From the NCBI GenBank assembly GCA_000733355.1, contig JNVV01000077.1:98893-162892 (forward strand): a stretch of 64,000 nucleotides of DNA, given 5' to 3'. Shown piece after piece: positions 2,317 to 49,003 of the stretch. Every line of letters begins with the position of its first letter. The stretch's first letter is position 1. The position numbers and the translations under genes are program-made. A model generated the notes under the pieces. The model was given only the letters and a program-made list of their open reading frames with translations, did no database searches and had not been told where the DNA came from. The DNA is from Falciphora oryzae (taxonomy: Eukaryota; Ascomycota; Sordariomycetes; Magnaporthales; Magnaporthaceae).

Positions 2317-3792
2317 GATAGTGCCTCAGTCGGGTTCCAACACCAGCGGTCGAGACATCATGGAAAGTCCGAATCGAGGCGGGCTCCTCTGCAGCAGAGT
2401 CGATCGCGCAGACAGCGACGGCCGGTGGCGCGAGGGAGCGGCAAGTCGCGAGACAAGAACTCGGGGCCGCCCCACTCACACGTCGTCACAGCAAGGGCAG
2501 ACGATCGGTCTTGGCGGCTCGGGTTGAGCCGCGGCTGATCTGAAAACACTCGAGGAATACGGGAAAGGGGCCCCTTGGTCTCGCCCACCGAGTATTGCCT
2601 GCCGGACCTGGAAGGAGCAGAGATGAAGTTGAGAGGCCGGCCGAATGTCAAGGCCTAATTTTGTACATTCAAGCTAACTTGTCTCGATACACCATTTTGT
2701 CGATGTGTCATTGCATGGGTAAGGGGCACCGGAGTAGAACCCCCGATCGGGACTATCTTTCGATGGCTGAAGGGCGAGGTTCCCAGATGAGAAACGGGCG
2801 CAGTGTCACGAGAAGACGAAATCCGGCACTTGCTCACTGGATAGGGAAACCCAGCAGCACCGGCAACTGGCTGCGACAGGCGTCTCCCACGCTGTCGACG
2901 GCAGAACCTGATCATGTGATTGTCCACGGCGCTGTCCGCCTCTTCAATTTCATGCGCAGCCCGCACATCGCGCCATCCAGCCACAGGATTTTTGTTTTCT
3001 TCTTTTGATCGCAAAGCTCCCGGCCCTGTGAATCTCCACGAACCCCACGATTTTCCAGGCAATCATGCAAGCGGCGGGCAAGGGTGGGGCAAGCAGAATA
3101 TCGGCGCCAAGCAAAATACCACCTCGTGTTCGACCTCTTGGCTGTTTTTCTCGGCAGGGGGGATTCCGCAAATTGGAAGCTTGGTGTGCTGGGAGCCGCT
3201 CCCATCGTGGCGGTCGGCACAGGACTGACAAAATCTGCTTTCGGTAGGACCCGTGTTACCCGCCTTGCATGCAGTCGGAGCTTGCTTTGGGTTGATAAGC
3301 CAGCTTGGAGATGCGATGACCAGTCGTGAAGATGGTTTCACTTTAGCCTCCGGCATATGCTGTTGCGACGACAAGCCGAGTCAAGAGCCACATTCTACAC
3401 CCCAAATTGATCCTCCCCAGATCGCGAGCCCCTCGTCAAAGCACCGACTGGATTGCCATCAATTGATCTCGACATCCCGGCTCGAAGCCATCGCATCTCG
3501 ACCGTAACGTCACACAACTGGCCGCGGCAATCACGATGGCGTCCCTGGCAGCCCTGGTAGCCCGGTGGAGCGAGGCCCCCGCTGCTCGATGGCTAATCGC
3601 ACCTCGACCCATCGCGACGGGGGTATAAGCATAACCACCTGCCGCTTTCGGATCCTCCGATTCCACTCCCACGGACAAACCCCGGCTCGCGGGCGACGAT
3701 CCCTCGCGCGCTACGGTATCATCTCTCTGCCCAATGCGCCCAGCCTTCTGTGCCATGGCTGGAGATGGACATGTCTGCCGGCCTTGATTGCG
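2317..3792. other. Intergenic region, no convincing gene
   Basis: No reading frame here shows a recognisable domain, and the short ORFs lack family resemblance or splice continuity. It holds the 3' flank of the transcription factor and the upstream region of the secreted protease. Confidence 0.6.
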
Positions 3793-3798
3793 TATAAA
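3793..3798 (+). promoter_or_regulatory. TATA box of the subtilase gene
   Basis: TATAAA 178 bp before the chosen ATG at 3976, the only well placed TATA element in this upstream region. It supports the signal-peptide ATG rather than upstream in-frame codons from 3565. Confidence 0.5.
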
Positions 3799-3975
3799 GT
3801 CGGGCAGAGCCGCAGGACTACGGCTGGCTGTCTACGATGGCTTCTTCCTCATCCCCACCTTCGCTTTAGTGTCGGGAAGCGCAGACCGTCCTCAAGGTCG
3901 GCCGGAGAAAGGGAGCGTTGCTGTGCCGTTGTTCGTTTGCCAGGTCACTCGCTTTTGCCTGCTTTCCCCTTCACC

Positions 3976-6779
3976 ATGGTCGCCTGGTCCTCGCTCGCGC
4001 CCCTCGTGGGCTTGACCCTCTCGGCTGTTGTCGGCGTCTCTGCCCAGGACGTCCCTGCCGAGCCGTCGACCAAGACGCAGTTTGAGGACGTGCCCGGCGC
4101 CTTCATCGTCGAGTTTGAGGGCGACTATGATGCCGACGCGCTCGTCAACGACCTGCGCGGCGAGCAGCTCGACGCCGAGAAGCGCCTGAGCCTCAAGTAC
4201 AAGCTCTTCAACGGCGCCTCGGTCAACGTCAACGCCACCGGCGACGCCGAGGAGACGGCGGCCAAGCTCGCCGGCCACGAGAAGGTCAAGAGGGTCTGGC
4301 CCGTCCGCAAGATCAGCATGCCCATGGACCGGGTCCAGTCCGTCGGCAGCGGCGCCGCCCGCGCGCACGCCGAGATCATGGCCAAGCGCGGAAACATCCC
4401 GTACAACAGCACCTACTCGACGCACGTCATGGGCCAAGTCCAGAAGCTGCACGCCGAGGGCTTCACTGGCAAGGGGATCCGCATCGGCGTCATCGACAGC
4501 GGCGTCGACTACACGCACCCCGCCCTCGGCGGCTGCTTTGGCCCCGGCTGCAAGGTCTCGTACGGCTACGACCTGATCGGAGACGATCTGAGCAAGTGGC
4601 CCATCCCGGACCCGGACCCGATGGAGGCGTGCTTCGGCCACGGGACCCACGTCTCGGGCATCATCGCCGCCAACCCCAACGACATGGGCTTCCAGGGCGT
4701 CGCGCCCGACGCCGAGATCGGCATGTTCCGCGCCCTCAACTGCATCGGCGGCAGCACCAACGAGCTGCTCATGGCGGGCTTCAACATGGCCTTCGACGCC
4801 GGCTCCGACATCATCACCTCGTCCACCGGCATCCTCGGCGGCTGGGAGGACGACCCGTGGTCGCTGACGGCGTCCCGCATCGCCGCGGCCGGTGTCCCCA
4901 TCTTCATCGCTGCCGGAAACGACGGCGAGAACGGCATGGGCCAGCCGAGCAACCCGGCCGCCGGACGCGGCGTCGCCTCGGTCGCCTCCATCGACAACAC
5001 GGACATTCCTCGCGTGTTCATCGCCGGTTCCTACCGGGTCGACGGCGACAAGGCGGAGCAGTTCCCCTTCCACACCGCCGCCGACGTGCCCCTGGGCAAC
5101 ATGACGCGCCCTCTGGTCATTGTCAAGGACCAGTCCGGCGCCATGTTGGACGCGTGCAGCCCGCTCCCCGACAGCGTCCCCAGCCTGGCTGACGTCGTTG
5201 CGCTGGTCGGCACGGGGTCGTGCACTATGATGGAGGCGAGCGCAAACATTAAGGCTAAGGGTGGAAAGCACATGATGAAGGTCCATTCTAACGACGAGTG
5301 AGTACAACCTAAAGGCTCTTGAACGTGTCCACGTGAATTTCACAACACTTTTGCTAACCGCCCACGCCAACGTCTAGCCCGCAGCCTTTCTGGTTCGCCC
5401 CGGAAGCTGGCATGCTTGGCGTCGCAATCACCACTGCGTCTCAGGGCAAGAAGTGGGCTGCCGACTTCGCTGCCGGCCACAACATCACCTTGACCACTCG
5501 CGATGCGGACAAGTCCCCCAACATGGTGACGCATAGCCCCGCCACTGTGCTGGGCGGCTACACATCGTTCTGGTCCACCTGGGGTCCCTCCTGGCAGATG
5601 GACGTTAACCCCAACCTGGGCGCTCCCGGAGGCGAGATCCTCTCCACCTACCCGCAGGCCGTCGGCACCTACGCCATCCTCTCGGGCACCTCGATGGCCA
5701 CCCCGTACGCTGCCGGCGTCGCCGCCCTTCTCGCCCAGAAGCGCGGCGTCCGCGACGCCGAGACCATCCGCGCCCTTCTCGCCAGCACCTCCAAGCAGCT
5801 CGTGTCCCACGACGGCAAGCGCGCCGATCCGGCCGGCCGCCTGGCCAGCGTCCTGCACGCCGGCCCTGGCATGATGCAGGCTTGGGACGCGAGCGAGGCC
5901 AAGGGCCTGCTCAGCACGGCCGGCATCTCGTTCAACGACACGGCCCACATCCGCGACGTGACCTTCTCGCTCAAGAACACGGGCTCGGCTGAGGCCACCT
6001 ACGAGCTGGGTCACCAGCCCGCGGCCACCGTGTACGCCTACGAGACGGACGGCGTCAATTACGCGTACCCGGTCCTCCTCGCCGACGAAGCTGGCTCCAC
6101 GGCGCAGCTCTCGTTCCCAGCCACGGGCGACCTCGTCACCGTGCCGGCCGGCGGCTCTGTCGACATCACGGTCAAGTGCAGCCCTCCCTCGGGCCTCAAC
6201 GCGACCCGCCTGCCCTTCTACAGCGGCTTCGTCACGCTCAACGGCACCAACGGCGACGCCCTCGTCCTGCAGTACCAAGGGCTGGCCGCAAACTTCATCG
6301 AGCAGCCCGTCATGCGCACCGCCCTCGGCCGCACGGGCCTGCCCGTGACATACCTGGCCGCCAGCGACACCCGCTGGCCCATCCCGATCAAGGACGACCA
6401 CGTCTTCCGCGTGCCCCGCCCCACCAACCCCCCGAGCCGCGAGACGGGCTCGTGGCCCCAGGCCCGCGTCATGATGACGCTGGGCGTGGCCGAGTTTGCG
6501 CTCCGGGTCGTACCGGTGGGCGATGAGACCAAGAATAAGGGCAACGTGACGGAGTGGTTCGGCCACGAGACTTTTGGGACGGCCTACTACAACCCGGTGC
6601 TGCGCCTGCCCCGCGAGCAGTACCGCCTGTCGTTCCTGGGCCTGCTGAGCGACGGCACCGTCGTGCCCGAGGGCCGGTACAAGCTCCTCGCCACGGCGCT
6701 GAGGGTGTTTGGCGACAGGGAGAAGAAGGAGGACTGGCAGGTGCTGGAGCTGGGGCCGTTCAAGCTCGAGTACCGGTAG
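3976..6779 (+). CDS. Secreted subtilisin-like serine protease (S8, minor extracellular protease Vpr-like)
   Basis: Extracellular endopeptidase of about 907 aa from two exons, 3976-5297 and 5378-6779 (intron GTGAGT...CTAG; the junction reads D-PQPFWF). The ATG at 3976 starts a clean signal peptide (MVAWSSLAPLVGLTLSAVVGVSA) trimmed before QDVP. An I9-type propeptide follows (AFIVEFEGDYDADALV). The S8 catalytic domain shows Asp174 in IGVIDSGVD, His222 in GHGTHVSG, the oxyanion Asn in AAGNDGENG and Ser546 in SGTSMATPYAAG. A PA-like insert lies between Asn and Ser. The last 300 residues match the Fn3-like/DUF1034 C-terminal region of fungal Vpr-type enzymes. All triad residues are present, so it should be active. 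The role is probably nutrient or host-protein degradation (inference). Long antisense ORFs over this gene are GC-driven shadows. Confidence 0.93.
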
Positions 6780-9173: not shown

Positions 9174-12100
9174 TCAAGCCCCCTCAAAGACCAAAAGGCT
9201 CTCGACGCTGACCATGCCAAAGCCGCGCTCGCGCAACCGCTCCCGGCCACGGTGGGCTGGGAACTCTGCCACGACCAGAACCTTGATATCCCACGGGTCA
9301 GCCCCATTCTTCCCCAGGAGCTTGAGCACAGCGTGAAGCGTCGTCCCCGACGCGAGCACGTCGTCCACCACCACAATGGGCTTGCTGGCCTTGAGGAGCA
9401 CGTCGCTGCAGGCCATCTCTAGCATGAGATCCCTCCCCTGCTCCTCGCCACCGCCGTCAACCGCGACGGACGAGATGTATGATTTGAGAACAGGCACCGA
9501 GACCTTGGGCCCCGGCAGCTTGCCGCCCTTGCGGACGAGGCTCAGCGGCACGTCGAGCGCCCCCGCAAGGCTCGCGGCGAAGACGAAGCCGCCCGCCTCG
9601 CAGCCCACGATGCCGCCAACCTTGGGCTCTTCGCTAGCGCCTAGCCGGCTCTGCATTAGCGACGTGCACAGGCGCAGGCCGCCCGGCTGCTCGGCGATGT
9701 TGAGCACGTGGCGGAAGTCGACGCCCGCGCGCGGGAAGCCGGGCACCGTCGGGACCATCCTGCCCAATCGACCAACATCGGGGTCGAGGAGCGGCAGAAT
9801 GCGGGACCGCGCAAACGCAACCGCGTCGTCGGACCCGCCCACATTGTTGTCGAAGACGAAGCAGGGCTGCCAATGCGACAGCGGCGCGACGGGCCTGTAG
9901 CCGGGAGCAGCGGCTGAAGCAGCGTAGACGCCGCGCCTCACAGCCCGCAGCTCCGGTGTCGCGACGACGAGCACCTCGACGACGCGCGCCCACGGAGCGA
10001 GGCGTGCCCGCGTCGCGACGGGCGCCTCGTCGCGCATGCCCGTGATGAACAAGACCTCGATAGCACCGACGTGGCCCGCCAGCTCGGCAAAGACCTCCTC
10101 GGGCAGGCCCGGGCGGGCCGCGAGCTCCGCGCGGTAAAACGCCGCCAGCGCGGCCCGGTGCTGCTCCTTGTAGCCGCGGTCCGCCAGCAGGCGCTGCGCG
10201 TCGACGCCCGGCGTGGCGGCGGCGTATGCGCGCTTGGTCGCGTCGCTGATGCTGGCCACGCGTGCGGGCACGCCGGCAGAGGCGAGTGTCGACGCCCAGA
10301 CGGCTGCACAGTAATCCTTGCCCGCGCCGTGCTCGCCCGTCACGACGACGATGAGGCGCGGCCGCGCGGGCGGGCCGAGCAGCGGGCAGGCGAAGGGGAG
10401 GACGCTGTGCGGGTCTAGGATGCGCTTGAGGCGTGCCAGGCGCTCGCGGTTGCCGCCGAACGCCTTGGCTGCCAGGGCTGCATCGCGGGGATCTGGGCCC
10501 AGGTCGGCGCTGTAGGCTCCTGCACCCAACGGGAGCACCTTCTTGGCGACATCGTACACCCAGCGCGTGCAGGCGCGAGCGTCGTCGTTGTCGTCGTCGG
10601 TGCGCCGCCAGACGCCCGTGATGTTGCAGGCGAAGCGCCAGCCGCGGCAGCCAAAGGCGGTAGCGTCGTCAGCCACGTCCCGCACGGCACCGTCGCCGGC
10701 GTAGACGAGGTGGATGTAGCTGTAGATGGAAGGGCGGTTGTCAAGGGCGGCGAAGAGCTCGTTGCGGACGGCCTCGGTCGATATGTCCTTGAGTAAAATG
10801 CACCTCTTGAAGGCCGAGAACTTGTCCCCGCCGTGTCCTCCGTGCATTGCCTTCACGGACATCTCCGTCTCGAACAGCCCCATGTTGTCCACCCCCTTAG
10901 CCAGATGCGGGTGCTGCTCGAGGATTGACGATATGGTCTTGGCTGCATTTTCCGGCTCCACGGCTGGCCCCGAGGGACTGTATGCTGTGACGCCAAGGCG
11001 GACTTGGCCTCCCCCGGGGAGAAGATAGAAATCCGCAGCCATCCCCCGCGAGAGCTTGTCGATTCCTTCGTCCAGCCTGGAGAGCGTGCGATGAGCCTCG
11101 GCCACGCTGCCTATGCAGGTATTCCAGTTCCGGACATCGTAAGTCGCGTCAGGGGTTGTCCTGAAGACCACGCTAACAACGATACAGAAGTTGGTTCCGG
11201 CTCCCTTGAGCGCCCACAAAAGATCGGCCTCGTGCTCCGAGTGCTCGGCATTGTCGGGCCTGCCCTCGGCCGGCACGTGTCCGAGACACAGCACGCGCGG
11301 GGACTCGACGCTGACGACGACAGCGCCAATGATCGAGTCGCACGCCAGGCCGAGCTGCCTGGAGAGATGTCCGATGCCACCCTGAAGCCACAAGCCGGCA
11401 CCCACGCTTGGCCGGCTCCCCAGAGGCACCGTCACGCCCGCGGCCATGGCAGCTTCGATGATTTTGCCGCTGGTGCACCCTGCTCCGGCGATCAGCAGCT
11501 TCCCCATCGACGGATCGTGGACGACTCCGATCTTGTTAAAGGACCTCATGTCGAGAGCCAGGATCCCAGGCTGCTGGCAGTGGCCGCTGTGTCCCCCTCC
11601 GATTACCGTGATTCCGACCCCCCGCCATACGGCCCAGCGGACAAGCAGCTGAATATGATCAAGTGACGTCGCCCTAACCACTCCTGCCGGTCGGTGAAGA
11701 CGCGCTTCCCTATTCTTGACTTGCATTTCGCCCTCTGGTCTATCAAAGGAGATGGGGAGCAGAGTCTGCAGCGCAGCCACCGAGGCGGCGTTCTTGTCAA
11801 AGACCATCATGATCTGGGGCGCGTCGAACAGGAGCTCTCCTGGCCGGTCCTCTTGGTAGCGGCCGAGGAGCCTGCACAGGGCTGTCCACGCGAGGGTCGT
11901 CTCCTTCCCGAGTGGGCTCCCGGGAACCCAGTACCCGGCAAGGAAGGAGGCTGCGGCGACTAGAGCCTTGTCGTTGTCCGGCAGCCGGAGGCAGCCCTCG
12001 GGCCAGGACGCGACCTGGCGACAGACGAGGCCTGGGAGGTCCAGCGTCCCATCGGGGTGGAAGACGGCGACAACCCCGCCCTCTGCGAGCAGCTGCACAG

Positions 12101-12599
12101 CCTTTTCGATGAAGTGAGCCTTGGGGCCCAGGCCATACATACTGCGGCAGAAGAGGACCAGGTCGAATTTGTTATTGTGAGCCCGGGCGGCGTCGACGTT
12201 CAGGCCAAAGGGGCGTCGATGGATGATCGGCGGGCGCTCGAGCCCGGGCAACATGGACCCGGCCTGGAGACCCTCCTCTAACTTCTCTGCGAACAAGCCG
12301 TTGCACTCGTATGCCTCGTACTTGACAATCTTTCGGCAGGTCTCTAGGTCGGGTACGGATGCGAGGACGGTCTCTGGTCCAGGTCCGATCTCGAGCACGG
12401 ACAGTCCGCCGTGGCGGCCGGGCAAAGATGCCAGAAGGTGGGATAGCTGGGGGAAGATAAAGTCATTGTAGTTTCCCGATTCTGCGACACGTATGATCTG
12501 GTGGGCCTGGCTGTATTGCAAGTCAGACAGGTTGGTTCGTGTAGCGCCCCTGCTGGTGTGCTGCCTGAGGGCAGACTTTAGAGCGTCAACGGTAACCAT
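9174..12599 (-). CDS. Four-domain fusion enzyme: methyltransferase / FAD-linked oxidase / phosphomevalonate-kinase-like / adenine-phosphoribosyltransferase-like
   Basis: A single uninterrupted frame of 1141 codons. Residues 1-270: class I SAM methyltransferase, HNMT-like, with motif I VLEIGPGPE (68-76) and FDLVLFCRSMYG. Residues 300-740: PCMH/berberine-bridge-type FAD oxidoreductase with GGGHSGH (334-340), whose His is the expected 8-alpha FAD link, GGIGHLSRQLGLACD, and a C-terminal RLKRILDPHSVL. The second covalent Cys of bicovalent enzymes is absent. Residues 745-900: resembles animal-type phosphomevalonate kinase (PF04275), with P-loop GEHGAGKDY (755-763), LLADRGYKEQHR and TGMRDE. Residues 945-1141: resembles adenine phosphoribosyltransferase, with PGFPRAGVDFRHVL, RKGGKLPGP and PRPP loop VVVDDVLASGTT (1077-1088). 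No signal peptide, so probably cytosolic. Domain calls are by motif. The substrate is unknown. The combination suggests making or tailoring a nucleotide-linked small molecule (inference). Confidence 0.8.
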   Translation of the reverse strand: MVTVDALKSALRQHTSRGATRTNLSDLQYSQAHQIIRVAESGNYNDFIFPQLSHLLASLPGRHGGLSVLEIGPGPETVLASVPDLETCRKIVKYEAYECNGLFAEKLEEGLQAGSMLPGLERPPIIHRRPFGLNVDAARAHNNKFDLVLFCRSMYGLGPKAHFIEKAVQLLAEGGVVAVFHPDGTLDLPGLVCRQVASWPEGCLRLPDNDKALVAAASFLAGYWVPGSPLGKETTLAWTALCRLLGRYQEDRPGELLFDAPQIMMVFDKNAASVAALQTLLPISFDRPEGEMQVKNREARLHRPAGVVRATSLDHIQLLVRWAVWRGVGITVIGGGHSGHCQQPGILALDMRSFNKIGVVHDPSMGKLLIAGAGCTSGKIIEAAMAAGVTVPLGSRPSVGAGLWLQGGIGHLSRQLGLACDSIIGAVVVSVESPRVLCLGHVPAEGRPDNAEHSEHEADLLWALKGAGTNFCIVVSVVFRTTPDATYDVRNWNTCIGSVAEAHRTLSRLDEGIDKLSRGMAADFYLLPGGGQVRLGVTAYSPSGPAVEPENAAKTISSILEQHPHLAKGVDNMGLFETEMSVKAMHGGHGGDKFSAFKRCILLKDISTEAVRNELFAALDNRPSIYSYIHLVYAGDGAVRDVADDATAFGCRGWRFACNITGVWRRTDDDNDDARACTRWVYDVAKKVLPLGAGAYSADLGPDPRDAALAAKAFGGNRERLARLKRILDPHSVLPFACPLLGPPARPRLIVVVTGEHGAGKDYCAAVWASTLASAGVPARVASISDATKRAYAAATPGVDAQRLLADRGYKEQHRAALAAFYRAELAARPGLPEEVFAELAGHVGAIEVLFITGMRDEAPVATRARLAPWARVVEVLVVATPELRAVRRGVYAASAAAPGYRPVAPLSHWQPCFVFDNNVGGSDDAVAFARSRILPLLDPDVGRLGRMVPTVPGFPRAGVDFRHVLNIAEQPGGLRLCTSLMQSRLGASEEPKVGGIVGCEAGGFVFAASLAGALDVPLSLVRKGGKLPGPKVSVPVLKSYISSVAVDGGGEEQGRDLMLEMACSDVLLKASKPIVVVDDVLASGTTLHAVLKLLGKNGADPWDIKVLVVAEFPAHRGRERLRERGFGMVSVESLLVFEGA

Positions 12600-12927: not shown

Positions 12928-14773
12928 CTAAATAACGTCTAGGACATATTTAACCATGGCTATCGCCTTCTCCTCTTCTAAGCGTCGAGCGACAAGCTGT
13001 AGACTGATAGGCATTCCATGGACCGCATCGGCATCATCTAGTATTCAAGTTAGCTTTGATCACCCATAATCCCTGGTATCATTGTCTTACACTCTGTGTG
13101 GATAGCCTCGCACGTCGGCCCCAAAGGCCGTTTCGTGGCATCGGGCGTGTCGAGGCTCTTATCCACCGACAGCCCTGTCGGGAAAGAAACGCAAGAATAG
13201 TCGAGAACGTTGTAGACGCCAGTGTATGCAACTAAAAAGCCGAATTAGTTCCCAGAAAGAAGATCGGAGGAGCAGAGCAAACTTACTATGCTTGAAGCTC
13301 CCGTTCTTGACAGAAGCAAACGGCGTCGTGGGACACAGAATGGCGTCGATGCCGGCTGCGTTCCACCGGTCGAGGTAGCGCTTCTGGAACGCCGTGCGCT
13401 CGAGGTGGATCTGCCACATTTCGTACGTGCCCACCTCGGCGGCGCACGAGTAAGCCTCCATCTCGGGCCTCCACGGCTCGCCCGTCCTCTCGAGCTCCCG
13501 CCGGATCGAGATGCCGCCGTCGGCTACAAACATGCGCTCTAGCAGGCTGAGCCCCTGCGTGTGGTCAACGGGGTCCCAGTTAACAACCTCGACGCCGGCG
13601 GCCTTGAGCTTCGCGGCCGTCTCGTGGAGGGCGCGCGCGACGGGGGCCGTGGGGCGCACGATGCCGTCGTCCCACATGACGGCGATCTTCAGCTTGGCGG
13701 GCAGCACGGCGTCGCGCCAGGGGATGGGCACGCAGCGCGGGTCCCGGAGCCACGTCTGCCGGCCGACGACGCTGCGGCTGTAGTGCTCTAGGTCAGCGAT
13801 GGTGCGCGCCATGGGCCCGTTGACGGACTGCACGGCCTCCTGGCCGGCCATTCCCGAGCGGCAGCCGAGGGTGGGGAAGCGGCCGAAGGAGGGGCGAAGG
13901 GTGAAGATGCCGGTGCAGGCGGCGGGGATGCGCAGCGAGCCGCCTGCCAAAATAAATGTCAGCAAAATATTTATCTCAGAAATCAGTTTCTCTGGTAGGT
14001 CCTAACCGATATCGGTGCCGATGCCTAGTGGGCTGCCCTTCATGACGATGAGGGCCGACTCGCCGCCGGAGCTCCCGCCGCTGGTGAGGTTCCGGTTGCG
14101 CGGGTTGACGGTGCGGCCGAAGACATTGTTGACGGACTCGGCGATCATCATGGCCGTCGGGACGTTGGTCTTGACGTAGAACACGGCGCCGGCCTCCTCG
14201 AGGAGCTCGGCGAGGGCGGCGTCGCGCTCGGCGGGGCAGCCGACGTGGGACGCGAAGCCGACGGTGGCGTCGAGGCCCTTGAGGTTGAAGTTGTCCTTGA
14301 GCGAGATCGGCAGGCCGTGGAAGGGCCCCAGCGGCTGGCCGGTGCGCTCAAGGTGCTCGTCCAGGGCGGTGGCTGTGGCAAGGGCGCGGTCGAAGCATGT
14401 TTCGGAGAGGCAGTTTGTCTGGTGATGGGGTTCAGCGTTGCTTACGCACGTATGGAGACTAGGGTAGCAAGTGTACCAGTTGATGCGCCGCCGCAGCTCT
14501 CTTGCAAAATGCCTTAGTCACGTCGACAGATTTGAGGTCACCGGAGGCGAGCTTAGAGAGCAGCTCAGTGGCCGTGCTGTCGGTGATGGCGAGCTCCTTG
14601 GGGGTGAACCAGCCGGAAGCCCCGGGCCAGCCGGTGACGTCCTCCTGGGAGTCCGGAGGTAGGAGGTCTTTCGGCACGCGCCATTCAGGGGGAATGGAAG
14701 CGGCGAGGGCCTCGCGCTTCCTGGCGGCGGCGAGCTCCCAGGGGGCGGTTTTGTCGGCCCCCAAGCTTCCCAT
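12928..14773 (-). CDS. Amidase-signature hydrolase (fungal acetamidase type)
   Basis: Hydrolyses a carboxamide by a Ser-cisSer-Lys mechanism. Five exons on the minus strand (14773-14477, 14418-14007, 13943-13287, 13231-13091, 13037-12928) give 538 aa, the usual fungal acetamidase size. All four introns are GT-AG and every junction restores family sequence (AHQL-TNCLSE, GTDIG-GSLRIP, SFKH-IAYTGVYN, IHTE-YDDADAVHGMP). Lys140 in SLKDNF, Ser215 in TSGGSSGGE and Ser239 in TDIGGSLR keep the spacing of the FAAH triad (75 and 24 residues). Start: ATG of MGSLGADK rather than an in-frame codon eight residues upstream. It has no signal peptide and is probably cytosolic. It sits 328 bp downstream of the four-domain gene start on the same strand and is divergent from a DAL5-like transporter, suggesting uptake plus amide hydrolysis of one compound. 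Confidence 0.9.
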
Positions 14774-15861
14774 ATTTTTTTTTTCTTTTTTGATCAAAAG
14801 CCGGGAACGTTTATCCTTGTCTTACTTCGAATCAGGCACCTAACCATGTCTCACCGCCTCATCTTCTCGTGAGGGGAAGTGGTGGGTGATTGATTCGGGC
14901 GCCCCATCATTGTTAAATAGGCGCGCGATTTAGATACTCAACTCAGGGCATAACGGCATCATGGCGCCGGGCCGGTCATCGGTAATACCAGGACTGGGCT
15001 GACTCGCATTGTCCGCCAAGGATCCATTGCGATGCGGAGAAGGAGGGGCTTTTGCGGGGGGATTCGGAATCGGGAAAGTAGAGATAAGGCGACCAGGCAT
15101 GTGGGCGGGGAATCGTTAATATCAAGATGATGGTGGTGATAGTGGGCTTCAGTGTGGAAGTACCTATGCCCGGACGGTACTCTGCAGTGGAGGTTTTGTC
15201 GCCGCTTTGATAAGATAAGGGACCCCATCAAAACAGGTCGGCCTCCACACGACGAGCCCTCCGCACGACTGACGCCAAACCTTTCGGACGCACTCCCGGC
15301 CAGGCCCCCGATCTATCGTCGGCTTATCGCACCCATCTGTTTCGTCGTCGGACGGGAATGCTGCAGGTGGACTGCGATCTTCATCAGCAGGATCAGGTAA
15401 GACAATGATGACGAAATCGAGCTGGGAAGGCTCACGGGCAGTGCCGCAGGGTTTTCGTCTAATCAAGATACGATCGGCGTCCAACAGGAACGCATACATC
15501 AGATAAGACAGGAACAGGACCAGGAGGAAAAAAATGCCGACAGTCGGCCAATCCATATTCTCCTCGCCGATACTGATCCCGAAGACCCAAAAGCCAAGGC
15601 CGCCTAGGAATTCCAACCAGAGCAGAGGCAGTTTGCAGGCCCCTTAACAGGCCCCCTATCATCTTGTCTCGACGGGGTCAGCAACGGGGGCTGCGGTAGC
15701 TTCAGACGCCCAGACATCGGGCCCTGTTCGGTGCCTAGATTATCCTCGACTCCCACGGCCTCATAAGAGGTCGGCCGCCCACCCTCCGCGCGGCTACTGA
15801 AGCATCCAGCCCGTTGTAACTCCTCTGTGGCGAAGGGTAGCCACCCGAGACTCAACTCACG
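14774..15861. promoter_or_regulatory. Bidirectional upstream region between amidase and DAL5-like transporter
   Basis: Both flanking genes start from this 1.1 kb, so shared regulation is likely. GATA cores are visible (for example GATAAG at 15073-15090 and 15210-15218), which would fit nitrogen control, but such short motifs also occur by chance. Confidence 0.4.
15164..15616 (-). CDS. Doubtful ORF with one membrane segment
   Basis: A 150-codon frame inside the shared upstream region of amidase and transporter. It has one strongly hydrophobic stretch (TVGIFFLLVLFLSYLMYAFLL) followed by DADRILIRRK. The rest looks like non-coding translation, no family is recognised and there is no splice support. 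It may be noise, or a small membrane protein transcribed from the intergenic region. Confidence 0.15.
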   Translation of the reverse strand: MEFLGGLGFWVFGISIGEENMDWPTVGIFFLLVLFLSYLMYAFLLDADRILIRRKPCGTAREPSQLDFVIIVLPDPADEDRSPPAAFPSDDETDGCDKPTIDRGPGRECVRKVWRQSCGGLVVWRPTCFDGVPYLIKAATKPPLQSTVRA

Positions 15862-17528
15862 ATGGCGTTTGACAAGGTCAAGCAATACCTGCAAGTCGAG
15901 TATCAGCCCGGAGAGCGGAAGCTCATCCAAAAAGTCAGGTCACACTGCACACACCGCACCGGCTGCTAGACACTCGGCTGACCCATTCGAGCAGATTGAC
16001 TTCTTCATTCTTACCTTTTGCTGTCTGAGCTACCTGGTCAATTATGTAAGTCTCTACTGCCTCCGCCTCCCTGATCTGAGCACAACTGACGAACACCCAG
16101 CTCGACCGCACAAACATCAACAATGCCTACGTCTCGGGAATGAAAGAAGAGCTGGGCTTCGTCGGAGACCAGCTCAACCAGATCAACACCTGCTTTACCA
16201 TAGGGTACGTCACTCCATCACAAGCAATCCTCGCCCCTTTCGACCCACCACTAACACTCGCCACAGCTACGTCCTCGGCCAGGTCCCCTCCAACCTGTCC
16301 CTCCACTACGTCAAGCCGCGCTACTGGTTTCCCCTCATGATGATCATCTGGGGCGCCCTGACCATGTGCACCGCCAGCGTGCACAGCCCAACCTCCATCA
16401 TGGCCATCCGCTTCTTCCAGGGGTTGGCCGAGGCCTCCACCTTCGTCGGCACGCACTACATCCTCGGCGCCTGGTACACAGAGCGCGAGCTCGGCAAGCG
16501 CAGCGGCATCTTCACCGCCTCGGGCCTGGCCGGCACCTTCTTCGGCGGCTTCATCCAGACGGGCATCCACAGCAGCATGGACGGCCTGCACGGCCTCAGC
16601 GGCTGGCGCTGGCTCTTCATCATCGACGGCCTGCTGGCCGTCCCCGTCGCCGCCTACGGCTTCCTCTTCTTCCCCGACACGCCCCACACCACGACCGCCT
16701 TCTACCTCACCGCCGACGAGAAGGCCCTCGCCGCGTCGCGCGTACCGGAGGTCAAAGAGCGCTCGCCACTAACGCTCCAGTTCGTAAAAAAGGTGCTTAC
16801 GTCGTGGTACTGGTGGGGCTTTGTCGTGCTGTGGATTATCGCGGGCGAGACCGAGTCCTTCAGCACCAACTCGCTGCTGGGACTGTACATGAAGAGCCAC
16901 CCGGTGAACAAATACACGGTTGCACAGCTCAACAATTACCCAACGGGCGTGCCGGCCGTCGGTATCGTCTCAACACTCTTCTGGGCGACCCTGACGGACT
17001 TCCTGGGCGGGAAGCGGTACCTCGTCAGCTACTTCATCGGCATTGTCGGCATCGCCACCTCCGCCATGATTCTTGTCGCGTCCCGTGACCCGACGAGCGC
17101 AGCGTCCACGTCGGTCGTGTTCGGGGCGTACTACTGGGCCGGCGCTGTGTACGCCTGCCAGGCGACCTTCTTCGCGTGGTGCAACGACGCGATGCGGTAC
17201 GAGGAGGGCGTCTTCCGCGGCGTGGTGCTGGCGGGGATGAACCTCAGCAGCAGCGCTGTCAACGCGTGGTGGAGCATCGTCTTTTACGGCGCGTCCATGG
17301 CGCCGTGGTTTATCGTGAGTCTTCTCGACGCCGACGAGTCTTTTCGGGGTGAATTCGTGCTAATGTGCAAGCTTGCAGAGGGGCATGTGGGCTATGATCG
17401 CCAGCTCCGTTGCGCTGATCGTCTGGACCGTCGGGTTGACGTACCTGACGCACAGGGAAGACAAGCGAAGGGTCCTAGACGCGGAGGAGACGGTGCCGGT
17501 TCAAAAGGGGCAGGACGGGAAGGACTAA
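15862..17528 (+). CDS. MFS anion:cation symporter, allantoate/nicotinate permease (DAL5/TNA1) type
   Basis: Plasma-membrane importer of small organic anions. Exons 15862-15933, 15995-16045, 16101-16204, 16267-17314 and 17379-17528 (GT-AG throughout) give 474 aa. Hallmarks of the fungal DAL5/ACS family are KLIQ-KIDFFILTFCCLSYLVNYLDR across the first two introns, NINNAYVSGMKEELG, GYVLGQVPSNL, RYWFP, RFFQGLAEASTFVG, GKRSGIF and GWRWLFIIDGL. Twelve hydrophobic segments are expected. The small 5' exons are typical of the family. The substrate cannot be read from sequence; relatives move allantoate, nicotinate, pantothenate or dipeptides. The gene is divergent from the amidase and convergent (54 bp apart) with an O-methyltransferase, so its cargo may feed those enzymes. 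Confidence 0.9.
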
Positions 17529-17582
17529 AGTATAATGATGATATCGTGGATGGTCGAACAGGTCGGGCCCCGGCCCAGTCCT

Positions 17583-18377
17583 TCAGTTGAAGCCTACATA
17601 CACGAGCATCTGGAATCCACCGCCATATGGGAGCACAGTGCTCCTAAACCCACTATCCGGTTCGTTCACATACCCCAGGAGATCCTTGTAGCCTTCCTTT
17701 GCAGCATCGATGTTGTCGGCAAGTATGATAGCACCCTTCTTGAGATGGGGCTCCACAAGCTTGAGCGTCGGGAGTGCCAGCGGCGTCCAGACTGTGTTCT
17801 AGTCAGCGAGAAGGTCCTCTTTACCAGTACCATATGGGGAAGACTTACTGTCCAGCAGGAGAAAGTCCACCTGAGACGGCATGTCCCTCTTCAAGGTCTC
17901 CAGCAGATCCCCCTGGCGGAGCTCGATCCACCGCTCGACCTCCTGGCCCGCCTGCGCCCAGTTCTCGCGCGCCCGCTTCGCCTTGGACGGCGCCAGCTCG
18001 GTGGCGATGACCTTGCCGGAGCCTCCACCCCCAGTGGCTCTGACGTTCTGGCCGACGGCGAGGGCGAGGTAGATGGTGGAGAGGCCGAAGCTGGTGCCGG
18101 CCTCGACAACGCTCCGGGCGCCCGAGGCGCGCAGTAGCAGGTAGACGAGTGCGCACTTGTCCGGCTCGAGGGCGACGAACAGGTCCAGCGTGCGCGCCTG
18201 GCGCGCCTCCTGGACTGCCGCGGCGCCGGCCGCGGCGCCGGGGATGTCGGTGCTCACGAAGGGCGGCTCGGCGAGGGCTTCGGCGTGCAGGCGCGCGAGC
18301 ACGTCGAGCACGCGCTGGCTGGCGCTGATAGAGGACAGGGCCTTGAAGATTTCTGCTTGGGCGAAGGGGGAAGGCAT
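17583..18377 (-). CDS. Class I SAM-dependent O-methyltransferase (caffeoyl-CoA OMT-like)
   Basis: Methylates a hydroxyl or related group of a small molecule using S-adenosylmethionine, cytosolic. Two exons, 18377-17849 and 17791-17583, give 245 aa. The 57-nt intron ends at the second of two AGs (AACACAG), because only that choice yields the family sequence DFLLLD-IWTPLALPTLKLVEPHL. SAM motif I is VVEAGTSFGLSTIYLAL, then KVIATELAPSKAKRA and GDLLETL. The end is GGGFQMLVYVGFN. Length matches fungal Methyltransf_24/OMT-3 proteins. The 3' ends of this gene and the transporter nearly touch, so it is a plausible fourth member of the 9-18 kb metabolic group. The substrate is unknown. Confidence 0.88.
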
Positions 18378-21127: not shown

Positions 21128-22055
21128 AGGGCCTGTCCTAGAGTAAATCGGGTTTTTGGTTTTTCCCATACTATTTTTAAAAACCGCTTGAAAACCAGTT
21201 TGCGGGTCCACGCAAACCCTTGTGAAGATCTTTCAGAAGACCCGCCAGAAGTATCTTTTCGCAGGACAACGAGTCGCGGCCCCCGGGCCCTAGCCAGCTC
21301 CTTTGCCACCTCCTGTGCTACCTGTTGAATATATAAAGCTAACGACCCTCCCGCCTTCGAAAAAGTTTGATTTGGAGAAATTTCGAACCTAAAAACAGGG
21401 CCGCCCTAGGGAGGGCCGGGCATGTTTAAAAGGCCGGGCACGAGGGTTTTGGCGCGTGCAAATAGGACCAGATAATAATAATTTTTTTTTTTGCTACTTC
21501 CTAAAGGGGAAATTCGCTTGCAAACTGCTGCCGCCTTTACCCCGCCGCCTTTACCCCGCTGCCCCACGTTTAGCCTGTGCACAAAGCGGTTTCGCTGCTG
21601 ACAAACTTAATGCCATTAGTCGCGCATTTGCGATAAAGCCACTGAGGCCCAGGCATCCAGCCACAAAATCCGCGCGAAACGGTACGCGCGAAAAGGTGCG
21701 CAAAAAGGTGCAAGTAGAGGTGCAAATAAAAGTGCAAAGGTGCAGAGGTGCAGAGGTGCAGAGGTGCAGAGGTGCAGAGGTGCAGAGGTGTAGAGGTGTC
21801 AATTGACGCGCCCGTGCTGTAAATGCTTCCCTTTTGAAGCCCATGTCCGTTTTGTGTGGGTGCGCTATAAAAAATTGCATGGCGATCGATACCGGGGTGG
21901 GGGTGGGTGCGGGAGAAAAAGGGTGCGTGGCCGGGAAGAGCCTCTTTATAAAGGTACATTTTTTATTGCAGGGCCCCTTGTGACGATCCTCGCTTATCCA
22001 AAAAACCGGCAAGGGGGGTCAAAAAACCAAAAAACCAATAGTCTAGGACAGGCCC
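21128..22055. mobile_element. MITE-like non-autonomous DNA transposon, 928 bp
   Basis: Imperfect terminal inverted repeats of about 38 bp begin AGGGCCTGTCCTAGA on the left and, read inward from the right, GGGCCTGTCCTAGA, then continue into T-rich GGTTTTTTGG stretches. It is flanked by TA at 21126-21127 and 22056-22057. It contains no coding frame with a recognisable domain, and carries an internal 8-bp satellite. The TA duplication places it with the Tc1/mariner superfamily. The ends differ from those of the neighbouring pogo element, so it is not simply a deletion derivative of that element. Confidence 0.75.
21737..21799 (+). repeat. 8-bp tandem repeat AGGTGCAG inside the MITE
   Basis: About seven copies of an AGGTGCAG unit in a row, the last ones changed to AGGTGTAG. 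Looser forms (AAGGTGCG, AGTAGAGGTGCA) precede it, indicating growth by slippage. Confidence 0.85.
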
Positions 22056-22159: not shown

Positions 22160-23770
22160 TCAACCAACCATGATGCAAAAGTGTACTGATTCCTGATCAG
22201 AATTTTCCGCTGTTTCAGACGCACTTTCCTCCACCTCTATAGCATCACCCCTTGTCTCTGCAACTCGGCGTATATCTACGAAGGCCTGGTTGGGGTCCGG
22301 CACAACCTTTTTCCTTTTGCGAGGGCGTTGCGCCTCCAATTCGGCCTCTAATTGCCTGATTTTTTGCTGGGCCGTAGCCAACTCGAATTCACGCACTTCG
22401 TACCCTTTTTGGACCTTCCGGAAGAACAGGCGCGTCGTGGGACTCGGCGGGGCCCGGGCTTTGAAAGTGCTGATTTGGGTGGCTAGCCCTCGGCTTCGTT
22501 TAGGAGTCTCCCAGCCAACTTGGGACAGCCGGAGGGGGACCTCTGAACGTCTTTTGGCCCTGTTATCCTCAGCGGATTGTTGAATTGCGGATCGCCGGCC
22601 GTCTCGGTTGGAATTTTCAAGCAAAAGCCGGTTTATAAGCGGCTTAAGCGGATTCCGTGGCCAAAGGCCTGTTGCCCGCCACCCTGACGCAATTATATAA
22701 GGGGTAAAGGCTTTGGTGCGTGCGTAGGCATAGGCCGTTAAAAATTGACGCTTTCCCACCACTGTAGAGCAGGTAAATAGAGCTTGGGACCCTAGTTTTT
22801 GGCGGTAGGCGTGTTTGAGAGGGCTGAAGACGGATAAATCCAAAGGTTGCAGAACGTGGGAGGTATAGGCAGGTAAATATAGGAGATAAACGTCGTTTTG
22901 CAGGCAAAGAAACATAAACTCTTTAGTTACGTAGGATCCGTGGCCATCCAGTATCAAAAGACGTGGTGCAGGGGTAGGGGGTTGGGTGCCCGGGAGGAAG
23001 ATTTTTTGCAACCACTCGACTCCAGTACTATCAATAGTCCACCCGTTATTTGTTGCAGTGAATTCCCAGCCTCTAAAAAGGCCTAGATCTTCTGGAAACC
23101 ACTGCTCCTGCACGCTTTTTCCTTTGAATATAATAAGCGGAGGAAGGGTGACCCCCGTGGCCGAAACGCACTCGATAAAGGAGGTCCAAGTGCGGGTTCC
23201 GGGCTCTTTTCTTTGCAAAGGCCGGGCCTCTGCAAGGCCTAGAACAAGCCCGTTACCCGTTTTACCCTCTTGCAGGCCCCCCTCGTCAGCGTTGTACGTA
23301 TTTTCCGGCTTTATCCGGGCCACCCCGGGGACCTGCAGGCGTGCCCACCACTCTTTTATTATAGTAGTAGTAGCGCCTTTAACCCGTGCAAGTTCCATGC
23401 GCCGTGTTCTCCCATGACGGATCTCCGGATATCGGCCTAAAAAACCGCGTATCCAATGTTTCCCTAGGGGCTGGGAGTCTCCCTGTTGAAGTAGGATCTC
23501 TTGCGCAAAAAAGCGGACTTCTGCGTGCGTCGGTGGGAGCCCCAGGGAGGCCTGAAGAAGCACCCAATCTGCTAGGCGCTTCTCCTGCTCCGGAGGTATC
23601 CGCTAATACTGTTCTTGTGCCTGTCGGCCGGGTAGGGATCCCGCTAGACGCCGGCGTAGGGTGGTTCTCGGTATGCCCCAAAGTCGGGCGGCCCGCGAGA
23701 TAGGGACCTTTGCCTGCACGGCCGCGACGGCCCGTTCGACGTCTTCTTCGGTATACTGTTTCTCTGGCAT
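22160..23770 (-). pseudogene. Pogo-family transposase with one in-frame stop
   Basis: Cut-and-paste transposase, 536 codons from ATG 23770. N-terminal psq helix-turn-helix (YTEEDVERAVAAVQAK, ISRAARLWGIPRTTLRRRL), then TAG at 23603-23605 within EQY-stop-RIPPEQEKRLADW, a CENP-B-type HTH (GKHWIRGFLGRYPEI) and the DDE_1 domain. The catalytic Asp candidates are in YNADEGG, LILDGHGS and LQPLDLSVF, the DDD pattern of pogo. The C-terminus is Arg/Lys-rich with a coiled stretch (ELATAQQKIRQLEAELEAQ). The frame is otherwise open through the stop, and the stop sits where the family has Gln-rich linker sequence, so a CAG-to-TAG change is likely. As it stands the element could be inactive unless readthrough occurs. 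Confidence 0.85.
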
Positions 23771-42976: not shown

Positions 42977-44844
42977 TTAGATATAGGCCAGGGTATTGTC
43001 CTCCCGAATCTTCCCCGATACCCCGAGGCACGCTTCGCCGCCCGCCACACAAGGTCCCCGAACAATGATCTGGAAAGAACAGGTAGTTAGCGTCATGTAT
43101 AAAGGGGGGAGTAGGGGGCAAAAAGGAATGTAACAGGGAAAAAGCTTACTTCGCCTTCAATCTTCTCCTCAGTCGTCTTGTGCTCGCCCTTGTCACGCAG
43201 CAGCACCTCGGTCGTGGTGAGCGGGGGGCCAAAATGCGAGGCTCGGGACACGGCTGACGGATCCTCGACGACGCGGTAGTCATAAAATCCCGTCTGCGCG
43301 ACGGCGCCAGCGACCTTGGGCGCTGTGAGTGCGTACACCACGCGCGCGCCCGTGAAGACGCGGAGGTCCGACAGCACAGTCGAGGACAGCGGCGGCGTGC
43401 CCGCGCCCGCGCGCTCGGCCACGAAGACGAGTCGGAGCTTGCCGGGAGTGCGGCCCAGCGCGGGGCGGAGGCTGTCGTTGAGCGAGGAGAGCAGCGAGGC
43501 GACGGGCATGACGCCAGACTGGGTGAGGGAGCGGGACTGCATGCCGTGCACGCTGCGTGCGAGGGCCGACTTGGCGACCGAGGCAGAGGTCTGCGCGTGG
43601 GTGCGGAGAAGCGCGGCGGGCGTCGCAACCAGAACGGTCGGAGAGATACCGCGTGTGGCCAGGGTGAGGTCTTCGGCACGGCCAGCGGCCGAGTTGAAAG
43701 CGACAGAACTGTTACTGTAGAGGGCGGCGAGCGTGAGGATAAGTGTGTGGGTGTTTGCGAGCGAGTCGGCGGGCAGGAACAGATCCGAAGGGCCAAGGCG
43801 CTGCGACGTGGGGATTGCCAGCATCTGGCCAGCGATGGCGGCGACGAGGTTGGCACTCGTGAAGCGGACCATCTCCTCCATCTCCCCCGGCTTCGACTGC
43901 CAGAAAATGGTGACATCGCGAGCTTCATTCTGGCCTTCAATAGCAGGCAAGTCCCGACCGGCATCGACGGGCTGCTCGGCCACAACATCGTGCCACGTCG
44001 AAACGTTAACGGCGCCACCCGTGCCCTTGGGTACTTCGTTCCAGTCCAGGTGCCGGTTACCCTCCTCAACAACCCAGACGATGTTGCGCAGGGAGGGGTA
44101 GTTCTTGACTACGGCGTCGAAGGGGAAGGAGCCGGGAAGCGCCACGACCGTGTCGGCGGCGGAGCGGCGCAGCATGGAGAGCACGGCTTCTTCGGTCTCG
44201 TCGAAGGGAAGAATAATCGCTGTCAGGTTGTGGAAGGCGCAGGCGAACAGCGTGGCGACCAGCTCGACCGAGTTGGGCAGGTAGACGGCGACCCGGTTTC
44301 CGCCCTGGTCAAGAATGTGGGCTCCGATGAGGTTGATCTGGCGGGTAACATCGTCTGCGGCGGGGTGTTAGTGTTAGTGAAGACCATGGGCAGTAGCATG
44401 GCAGAATCAGCAAGACCTACCCAGGTTGTGCTCTACGGCGTTCTCGCCGTGGACGGTGAGTAGGCGACCCTTGCCCTTGACATGTCCCTCGGTCTCGGGC
44501 GTGCCAGCGACAGCCTGCCTCCAGACGTCACGCAGATCGCCATCGCGGCCCCTAGCCCACTTGGAGGCGCCTGGGTCCTTGACGTTGAGGCCGGTGTTGA
44601 GGGGCATGCCGTGGGGCGAGGCGTGGCAGCGGTAGACGGCGGACTCGCCCTCCTGGCGCACGGGAGCCGCCTGGGCCTGTCGGGCGAGGAGCATGGGGTG
44701 GGTGTCGGGGTCGGCGCGGGTGAACAGCGAGTATGTCAGGATGCCGAGGAGGATGGTGATGAGGGCGGTCGTGTACGAGTTCCACTGGCCGACCATGCCG
44801 GTCAGGCCCTCGTCGATGTGCCACATGATGTTGTCGAGACCCAT
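42977..44844 (-). CDS. Membrane-anchored AMP-binding (acyl-CoA-synthetase-like) protein with degenerate ATP motif
   Basis: 573 aa from exons 44844-44421, 44354-43150 and 43069-42977. Introns are GTAGGT...GCAG and GTAAGC...CCAG, with junctions VEHNL-DDVTRQIN and EEKIEGE-IIVRGPC. The N-terminus has one membrane helix (TTALITILLGILTYSLFTRA), so it is probably anchored in an organelle or ER membrane. The body follows the ANL fold order: NLIGAHILDQGGNRVAVYLPNS, ELVATLFACAFHNL, SLANTHTLILTLAALY, and a late EGEIIVRGPCVAGG. However, where ANL enzymes have the P-loop TSGTTGxPK, this protein has FWQSKPGEMEEMVRFTS, so adenylation ability is doubtful. It could be a pseudoenzyme or a specialised binder. 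It is divergent from the Pom34 gene. Confidence 0.8.
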
Positions 44845-47327: not shown

Positions 47328-49003
47328 CTACATTTTACTCTTGACAATACCCGTGCCGAGCTCCAACCTAGCGACCTTGTACTCGCGCAGCAGCTCCTCG
47401 GTCCTCTGCCTCTGCCTCTCGATGGACTCGGCCACGGCCTTGCCGCGCTTGTTCTCGTTGCGGCCCATCTGGGCGAGGTGGACCTCGTCGGGCCCGTCTG
47501 CGAAGCGCAGCGTGCGGATCTGCGCCCACATGTTGGCGAGCGGCGTGTCCTGGCTGACGCCGGCACCGCCAAACGACTGCACGGCGCGGTCGATGACGGT
47601 CAGGGCCATGGTCGGCACCAGGACTTTGGCCTCGGCGATCTCCTTGAGCGCGGCCTTGGGACCCTCCTCGTCCATGCGGATGGCGGCATTGAGGACGACG
47701 AGGCGGGCGGCGTCGATCTCGATGCGCGAGCGCGCGACCCACTCGAGCACGACGCCGTGCTCGCGCAGCTGCTTGCCAAAAGGCGCCTTCTTGGGGTCGT
47801 TGATGCGCATCAGCATCCAGTCGAGCGCGCGTTCGGCCGCGCCGATGGTGCGCATCGCGTGGTGGATCCGCCCCGGGCCCAGGCGGCCCTGGATGATCTC
47901 GAAGCCGCGCCCTTCGCCGAGCACCATGTTGGCGACGGGCACGCGCACGTTCTTGAAGGTGATGTGGCCGTGGCCGTGGGGGGCGTCGTCGTAGCCGTAC
48001 ACGCTCAGCATGCGGTGGATCGTGATTCCTGGGGTGTCGGCGGGCACCAGCACGACCGACTGCTGGCGGTACGTGTCCTTGTTGGACGCGTCCGACTTGC
48101 CCATGACGACGTNNNNNNNNNNNNNNNNNNNNNNNNNNNNNNNNNNNNNNNNNNNNNNNNNNNNNNNNNNNNNNNNNNNNNNNNNNNNNNNCTCAGCATG
48201 CGGTGGATCGTGATTCCTGGGGTGTCGGCGGGCACCAGCACGACCGACTGCTGGCGGTACGTGTCCTTGTTGGACGCGTCCGACTTGCCCATGACGACGT
48301 AAATGGCACAGCGCGGGTCGCCCGCGCCGCTGGACCACCACTTTTGCCCGTTGAGGACGTACTCGTTGCCCTCGCGGCGGATGTCCATCTGGATGTTTGT
48401 CGCGTCCGACGACGCGACGCCCGGCTCCGTCATGAGGAACGCGGACCGGATCTGCCCCTCCATCAGCGGGACCAGCCAGCGCTGCTTCTGGGCCTCGTTG
48501 CCGTACTTGGCAAGCACCTCCATGTTGCCCGTGTCGGGGGCGGCGCAGTTGACGGCCTCGGAGGCGACGCGGGACCGGCCCAGCCACTCGGCCATCAGGC
48601 CGTACTCGAGGTTCGTGAAGCCGGGCGACTCCTTGTAGTGGCCCTTGGGCAGGAACATGTTCCACAGGCCCAGCGCGCGCGCGCGCTTCTTGAGGTCGTC
48701 CACCACGGGCGGGTGGCTCTTCCACCGGTCATCGCCCTTGCCGAGCTGTGCTTCGAAGACGGGGTCGGCACTGGGAAACGGGTCGAGGGTTTGTTAGAGG
48801 TGTCGTCGGGTTGAAGGGGCTTGGGGGGAAGCTTACGGGAGACATTCTTCCTCGACAAACTTGGCGACAAGGTCCAATGTCTGCTTGGCGCGGTCGCTCA
48901 CGCGGTCGCGGCACTGGGAGCCGAGGAGTTAGAAGAGCCGGTCTGGCCACTTGACGAATAGGGCTATTGGCAAGCTTACAATAGCGGGTATCCTGGCAGA
49001 CAT
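47328..49003 (-). CDS. Acyl-CoA dehydrogenase, peroxisomal type (gene interrupted by an assembly gap)
   Basis: FAD-dependent first step of fatty-acyl beta-oxidation. Exons 49003-48980, 48913-48837 and 48770-47328. The first read [19 protein letters not shown] and [18 protein letters not shown]. Motifs: [70 protein letters not shown] and [21 protein letters not shown] 79-N gap and a duplicated 109 bp lie inside exon 3. They total 188 bp and shift the frame. Treating one copy plus the gap as artefact gives an unbroken 451-aa enzyme, normal for ACAD10/11-like proteins. The C-terminus VKSKM is a plausible PTS1 variant and no mitochondrial presequence is evident, so peroxisomal placement is inferred. 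Confidence 0.88.
48004..48112. repeat. 109-bp duplicate flanking the assembly gap, left copy
   Basis: CTCAGCATGCGG...GACGACGT, base-for-base the same as 48192-48300, and ending exactly where the N run begins. Confidence 0.95.
48113..48191. other. Assembly gap (79 N)
   Basis: Run of 79 undetermined bases inside the acyl-CoA dehydrogenase gene, bounded on each side by the same 109-bp sequence. Confidence 0.99.
48192..48300. repeat. 109-bp duplicate flanking the assembly gap, right copy
   Basis: Identical to 48004-48112. A true tandem duplication would break the enzyme's frame, whereas collapsing it restores the frame. Confidence 0.95.

Follow-up and report, generated by a model that had tools for sequence, protein, structure and literature searches.

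Within a 64,000-nucleotide stretch of the Falciphora oryzae genome (contig JNVV01000077.1, positions 98,893 to 162,892; hereafter the window), one open frame on the minus strand encodes a protein of 1141 amino acids in which four enzyme-like domains follow one another: a class I S-adenosylmethionine (SAM) methyltransferase, a predicted covalent flavin adenine dinucleotide (FAD) oxidase, a P-loop kinase related to animal phosphomevalonate kinase (PMK), and a type I phosphoribosyltransferase (PRTase) resembling adenine phosphoribosyltransferase (APRT) (Table 1). A first-pass annotation of the window, made from the letters and their open frames, had described a single frame with four motifs, its strand unstated. 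All four were located, as VLEIGPGPE (residues 68-76), GGGHSGH (334-340), GEHGAGKDY (755-763, within TGEHGAGKDY at 754-763) and VVVDDVLASGTT (1076-1087), and the four domains proposed from them, in the given order and on one polypeptide, were borne out. Three scored above their Pfam cut-offs: Pribosyltran (61.6 bits; cut-off 26.3) and P-mevalo_kinase (PF04275; 56.7; 33.8), the two matches by which the annotation had wished its last two domains to be judged, and FAD_binding_4 (PF01565; 53.8; 26.4). The methyltransferase of the window protein remained below the cut-off (Methyltransf_23, 16.9 against 27); its assignment comes from a methyltransferase Pfam match at E ≤ 0.01 in 30 of 38 family members and from a structure model of residues 1-281 (mean predicted local distance difference test score 88), which has the Rossmann-like class I methyltransferase fold with a glycine-rich motif I and resembles histamine N-methyltransferase (HNMT) most closely.

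Table 1. Coordinates of the fusion gene, its domains and other features of the window.
Feature	Position	Strand	Landmark or basis
Four-domain fusion enzyme, one open frame, 1141 aa	9174..12599	-	ATG at 12599; stop ends at 9174
Class I SAM methyltransferase, HNMT-like fold; residues 1-281	11757..12599	-	VLEIGPGPE at 12372-12398
PCMH-type covalent-FAD oxidase (predicted); residues 295-740	10380..11717	-	H337 within GGGHSGH at 11580-11600
P-loop kinase related to animal PMK; residues 741-944	9768..10379	-	TGEHGAGKDY at 10311-10340
APRT-like type I PRTase; residues 945-1141	9177..9767	-	Phosphoribosyl pyrophosphate (PRPP) loop VVVDDVLASGTT at 9339-9374
Amidase frame adjoining the fusion gene	13159-13965		Pfam scan
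MFS transporter frame near the fusion gene	15827-17590		Pfam scan
Methyltransferase-like frame near the fusion gene	about 17.6-18.4 kb		Read by eye
AMP-binding frame, sub-threshold	43093-44184	-	21.5 vs 29.9 bits; 30 kb from the fusion gene
Acyl-CoA dehydrogenase frame	47328-48725	-	About 3 kb from the AMP-binding frame
Subtilase over two frames	3565-6779	+	Second frame with Fn3-like domain
Lys/Ala/Gly/Asp-rich repeat frame, 277 aa	7017-7850	-	Signal-peptide-like start
Short tandem repeat	about 21700-21800		Unit close to aggtgcag
DDE_1 transposase frame	22160-23563	-	Weak Tc5-type DNA-binding match
Alpha-L-rhamnosidase frame, 919 aa	51454-54213	-	Five Pfam domains

This architecture proved to be no isolated case but to belong to a widespread, already catalogued family: 844 proteins matched the full-length query at E ≤ 1e-3, and the best 120 of them covered 96-100% of it, with the three Pfam domains precomputed for every one. 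The domain order, for which the annotation had proposed a database search, was thus found throughout these 120. Because of this number of matches and their coverage, the layout lies, judged from sequence, far beyond chance, and a gene-model artefact is ruled out likewise, as full-length relatives have the entire layout in common. Those of the 120 that carry an organism name were ascomycete; their assignment to classes, here and below, is one that we take to be correct. The nearest were two Gaeumannomyces proteins (69% and 68% identity), the other 118 listed lying at 47-50%, and Gaeumannomyces also carries two copies of the common type (P0058 and P0099). In an alignment of 38 sequences, 35 common-type copies had a pairwise identity of 63-93% (median 72), and the mean identity was alike across the four domains (70-76%). 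F. oryzae itself gave nine matches, of which one was the full-length copy, seven were FAD-type parts and one was an APRT-type part. For bacterial relatives, a scan of genome contigs, a weak one with two short patterns only, matched 284 stretches, none of them a relative. One 593-aa family member (P0222) is labelled Sphingomonadales bacterium; it lies on a 3.6 kb contig and may be a fungal contaminant in a metagenome bin. The annotation knew of no described pathway with such an architecture, and our search of open-access papers, by titles and abstract openings, similarly gave no account of the function or architecture of the fusion.

Active-site signatures were counted over 121 sequences, that is, the window protein and the best 120 of its 844 matches; the remote end of the family lies outside this sample. 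The methyltransferase residues G72, G74 and E98 were kept in all 121, as were G760, K761 and D762 of the kinase P-loop (GKD) and Y810, K811 and E812 (YKE). His337 in the flavin loop of the FAD domain was kept in 120 of the 121. In the PRPP loop, D1079 was present in 119 (Glu in the other two), and D1080, G1085 and T1087 were invariant. This pattern fits four working sites, and all four domains may be active. We conclude that the fusion represents a real, conserved family of predicted four-domain fungal enzymes with their active-site signatures retained, to which the window contributes a member of a divergent clade, not a new architecture.

The third domain had been judged a PMK-related kinase other than the GHMP-type enzyme of fungi. 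The PF04275 match and an ERG8-type PMK gene elsewhere in the genome agree with this. The latter was found on contig C3 as three pieces matching positions 1-87, 86-322 and 360-452 of 456, in a six-frame search that ignored introns and in which no piece alone was above the cut-off and one had an internal stop. No further PF04275 match was found in the F. oryzae genome. Given that the domain scores above the PF04275 cut-off and that its nearest solved relatives by family profile are the PMKs 7xnd and 3ch4 (E = 1e-5 and 2.7e-5), one could envision a mevalonate-pathway PMK that merely happens to be fused. However, the domain scored 21.4 bits against a cut-off of 188.15 on the PMK equivalog TIGR01223, and it is without KRK (basic, ahead of SGKD in the P-loop), ARR and DDAESECGLD, motifs that we take to bind substrate in PMK and that are present in the PMK-like proteins P0294 and P0296; 3ch4 and 7xnd have KRK as well. 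Together with the separate ERG8-type gene, these differences led us to reject a mevalonate enzyme, and a PMK fused by accident is exceedingly improbable; no finding ties the domain to mevalonate metabolism. P0294, P0295 and P0296 are short proteins resembling true animal-type PMKs, and are the nearest kinase relatives found outside the family (27-29% identity).

The fourth domain had been called adenine-PRTase-like. Its Pribosyltran score, type I PRTase fold and PRPP loop uphold the family assignment, whereas the likeness to APRT itself holds only in part, as the domain reached 75.6 bits on the APRT equivalog TIGR01090 (cut-off 185.85) and its catalytic loop is changed. For fungal genes whose introns are ignored this cut-off is demanding, because the separate APRT locus of the genome, read in two pieces (134.3 and 33.1 bits), likewise falls below it. 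With this score and the separate locus, a housekeeping APRT is unlikely. In the FAD domain, which matched the VAO/PCMH fold, H337 occupies the position of the flavin-linking His, and a covalent bond is predicted. The best sequence match of the domain was 6-hydroxy-D-nicotine oxidase; in the fold comparison, EncM and others came ahead of it.

We tentatively favor the interpretation that the fusion is a multifunctional fungal enzyme acting on a single small N-heteroaromatic compound that resembles a purine or an imidazole. The HNMT-like domain would N-methylate this compound, the covalent-FAD domain would oxidise it with O2 by way of His337, the APRT-like domain would use PRPP to put ribose-5-phosphate on one of the ring nitrogens, and the PMK-like kinase would place a phosphate on the resulting nucleotide. 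An N-heteroaromatic substrate is suggested by the nearest solved relatives of three domains, which use such compounds (HNMT by fold, 6-hydroxy-D-nicotine oxidase by sequence, and adenine PRTase). The enzyme to which the kinase is related adds its phosphate to an existing phosphate group; for the kinase, the nucleotide formed by the PRTase domain would accordingly be a natural acceptor. That the genome has a separate ERG8-type PMK and APRT also points to a dedicated pathway. The most economical reading, we infer, would be that one ring compound is modified step by step until it is a nucleotide; the sharing of a substrate, its class and the order of the steps are presumed, as is the nucleotide-like metabolite that the annotation had expected.

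Several observations weigh against this interpretation. Relatives do not fix substrates, and the absence of the PMK motifs is a departure from the pattern of four working sites. In the PRTase, all 121 sequences have Gly in the pyrophosphate loop where human APRT has Arg (DSRGF), a residue that we assume to have a role in APRT, and the segment leading up to the PRPP motif is some nine residues longer than in APRT (the median spacing from GKLPxP to VVVDD is 37 residues in the 118 of 121 sequences measured). EYG of the human flexible loop was found in none of the 121. Loss of the catalytic acid cannot be claimed from this, because nearby Glu residues are kept (E1052 in 99 and E1061 in 119 of the 121) and could serve.

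The replaced Arg and the altered flexible loop, with the Pur operon repressor among the PRTase profile matches, raise the possibility that the protein has two catalytic and two regulatory domains, the methyltransferase and oxidase being the part that makes a metabolite and the kinase-PRTase half a sensor of PRPP or ATP similar to PurR-type regulators of PRTase fold. Consistent with such a division, in a separate search with the kinase-PRTase half, for which 120 proteins were listed, that half stands alone in 14, whose initial Met is within six residues of the kinase match and which extend to the end of the PRTase (P0174 in two pieces). It is possible that these are truncated gene models or inner starts, since eight of the 14 begin with MEQK or MEPK, resembling an internal Met of the full-length consensus; the other six (P0122, P0134, P0161, P0174, P0186 and P0211) start otherwise. 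On the other hand, the acidic pair of the PRPP loop, the P-loop Lys, and YKE and MRD of the kinase are invariant or nearly so over the 121 sequences, as catalysis would predict, and we regard a regulatory half as quite unlikely.

Another scenario is salvage or detoxification, in which the oxidase and methyltransferase treat N-alkylated or otherwise modified adenines (for instance cytokinin-like or RNA-turnover bases) and so release or tag a base, which the PRTase then turns into a nucleotide for the kinase to phosphorylate. The adenine type of the nearest solved PRTase relative, a covalent-FAD amine oxidase as relative of the FAD domain, and the wide ascomycete distribution all accord with this proposal. 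However, cytokinin oxidase, an FAD enzyme that acts on adenines, was not among the matches listed in the sequence, profile and fold searches (which by itself proves nothing), the catalytic loop known from APRT is remodelled, and the genome has its separate APRT gene. We think that salvage is unlikely.

The history of the gene was examined with a FastTree phylogeny of 54 rows (the window protein and the 53 organism-named rows of the 120) and an IQ-TREE phylogeny of 30 rows hand-picked from these, in which the tested groups were chosen after the first tree. In both, the window protein and the two Gaeumannomyces copies form one deep clade. The tree mostly follows fungal classes, albeit imperfectly, since the four class labels in the 30 rows were clustered (4 changes, against a minimum of 3 and a shuffled mean of 11.6) and Eurotiales formed one group (support 98). 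In the same 30 rows, a single clade of the five Leotiomycetes was rejected by the approximately unbiased test (p-AU = 1.2e-8), and Orbilia was placed among Leotiomycetes and lichen-forming fungi; there was no rejection of a Sordariomycetes clade (0.053), a Dothideomycetes clade (0.40) or Orbilia as first branch (0.15). The departures could be due to gene transfer between fungi or to duplication with loss. At its most speculative, and unlikely to be correct, our preferred interpretation would extend to a one-gene pathway to an undescribed methylated, oxidised nucleoside diphosphate, the gene having spread, complete in itself, among ascomycete lineages that are far apart.

Alternatively, the fusion might serve as tailoring enzyme in a small biosynthetic gene cluster at this locus, given that the amidase and MFS transporter frames and a second, methyltransferase-like frame lie beside it (Table 1). 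No synthase backbone was detected in the 20 frames scanned of the window's 47 of at least 200 aa, although there is the sub-threshold AMP-binding frame 30 kb away; we consider such a cluster rather improbable. Elsewhere in the window, the two Subtilase frames are probably one intron-containing gene. The repeat frame, which consists of tandem units, resembles a small secreted repeat protein; its Pfam matches (ApoLp-III and DUF6507) are weak and below cut-off. The transposase, short-repeat and rhamnosidase features are given in Table 1.

Among catalogued proteins, the closest to the window protein is Gaeumannomyces RB599_010095 (P0001), filed as a hypothetical protein and alike in layout over its full length; the window protein and the two nearest Gaeumannomyces proteins stand deeply apart from the other catalogued relatives. 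Fungal relatives have been labelled "phosphoribosyl transferase domain protein", "adenine phosphoribosyltransferase" or "CAZyme family AA7". The labels APRT, PMK and CAZyme AA7 on some of them are each probably misleading, and identifying the product would correct them; it could also reveal a new nucleotide-like metabolite, and, owing to the fused format, one expressed protein may suffice for testing. The domains individually recall known enzymes to different degrees. The methyltransferase resembles HNMT (2aou and 1jqe) in fold, at 12% identity and with no match at the sequence level. The oxidase has the VAO/PCMH fold of EncM, 6-hydroxy-D-nicotine oxidase and the berberine-bridge-type enzymes at about 22% identity, but is part of a larger chain, and it has R396 (121 of 121) where the berberine bridge enzyme presumably has the Cys that forms a second bond to the flavin. 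The kinase has the P-loop GKD, YKE and PF04275 in common with animal-type PMK (human 3ch4, and 7xnd), and the PRTase has motifs like FPxxGxxFR, GKLPGP and VVVDDVLAxG in common with APRT (human 1ore and others).
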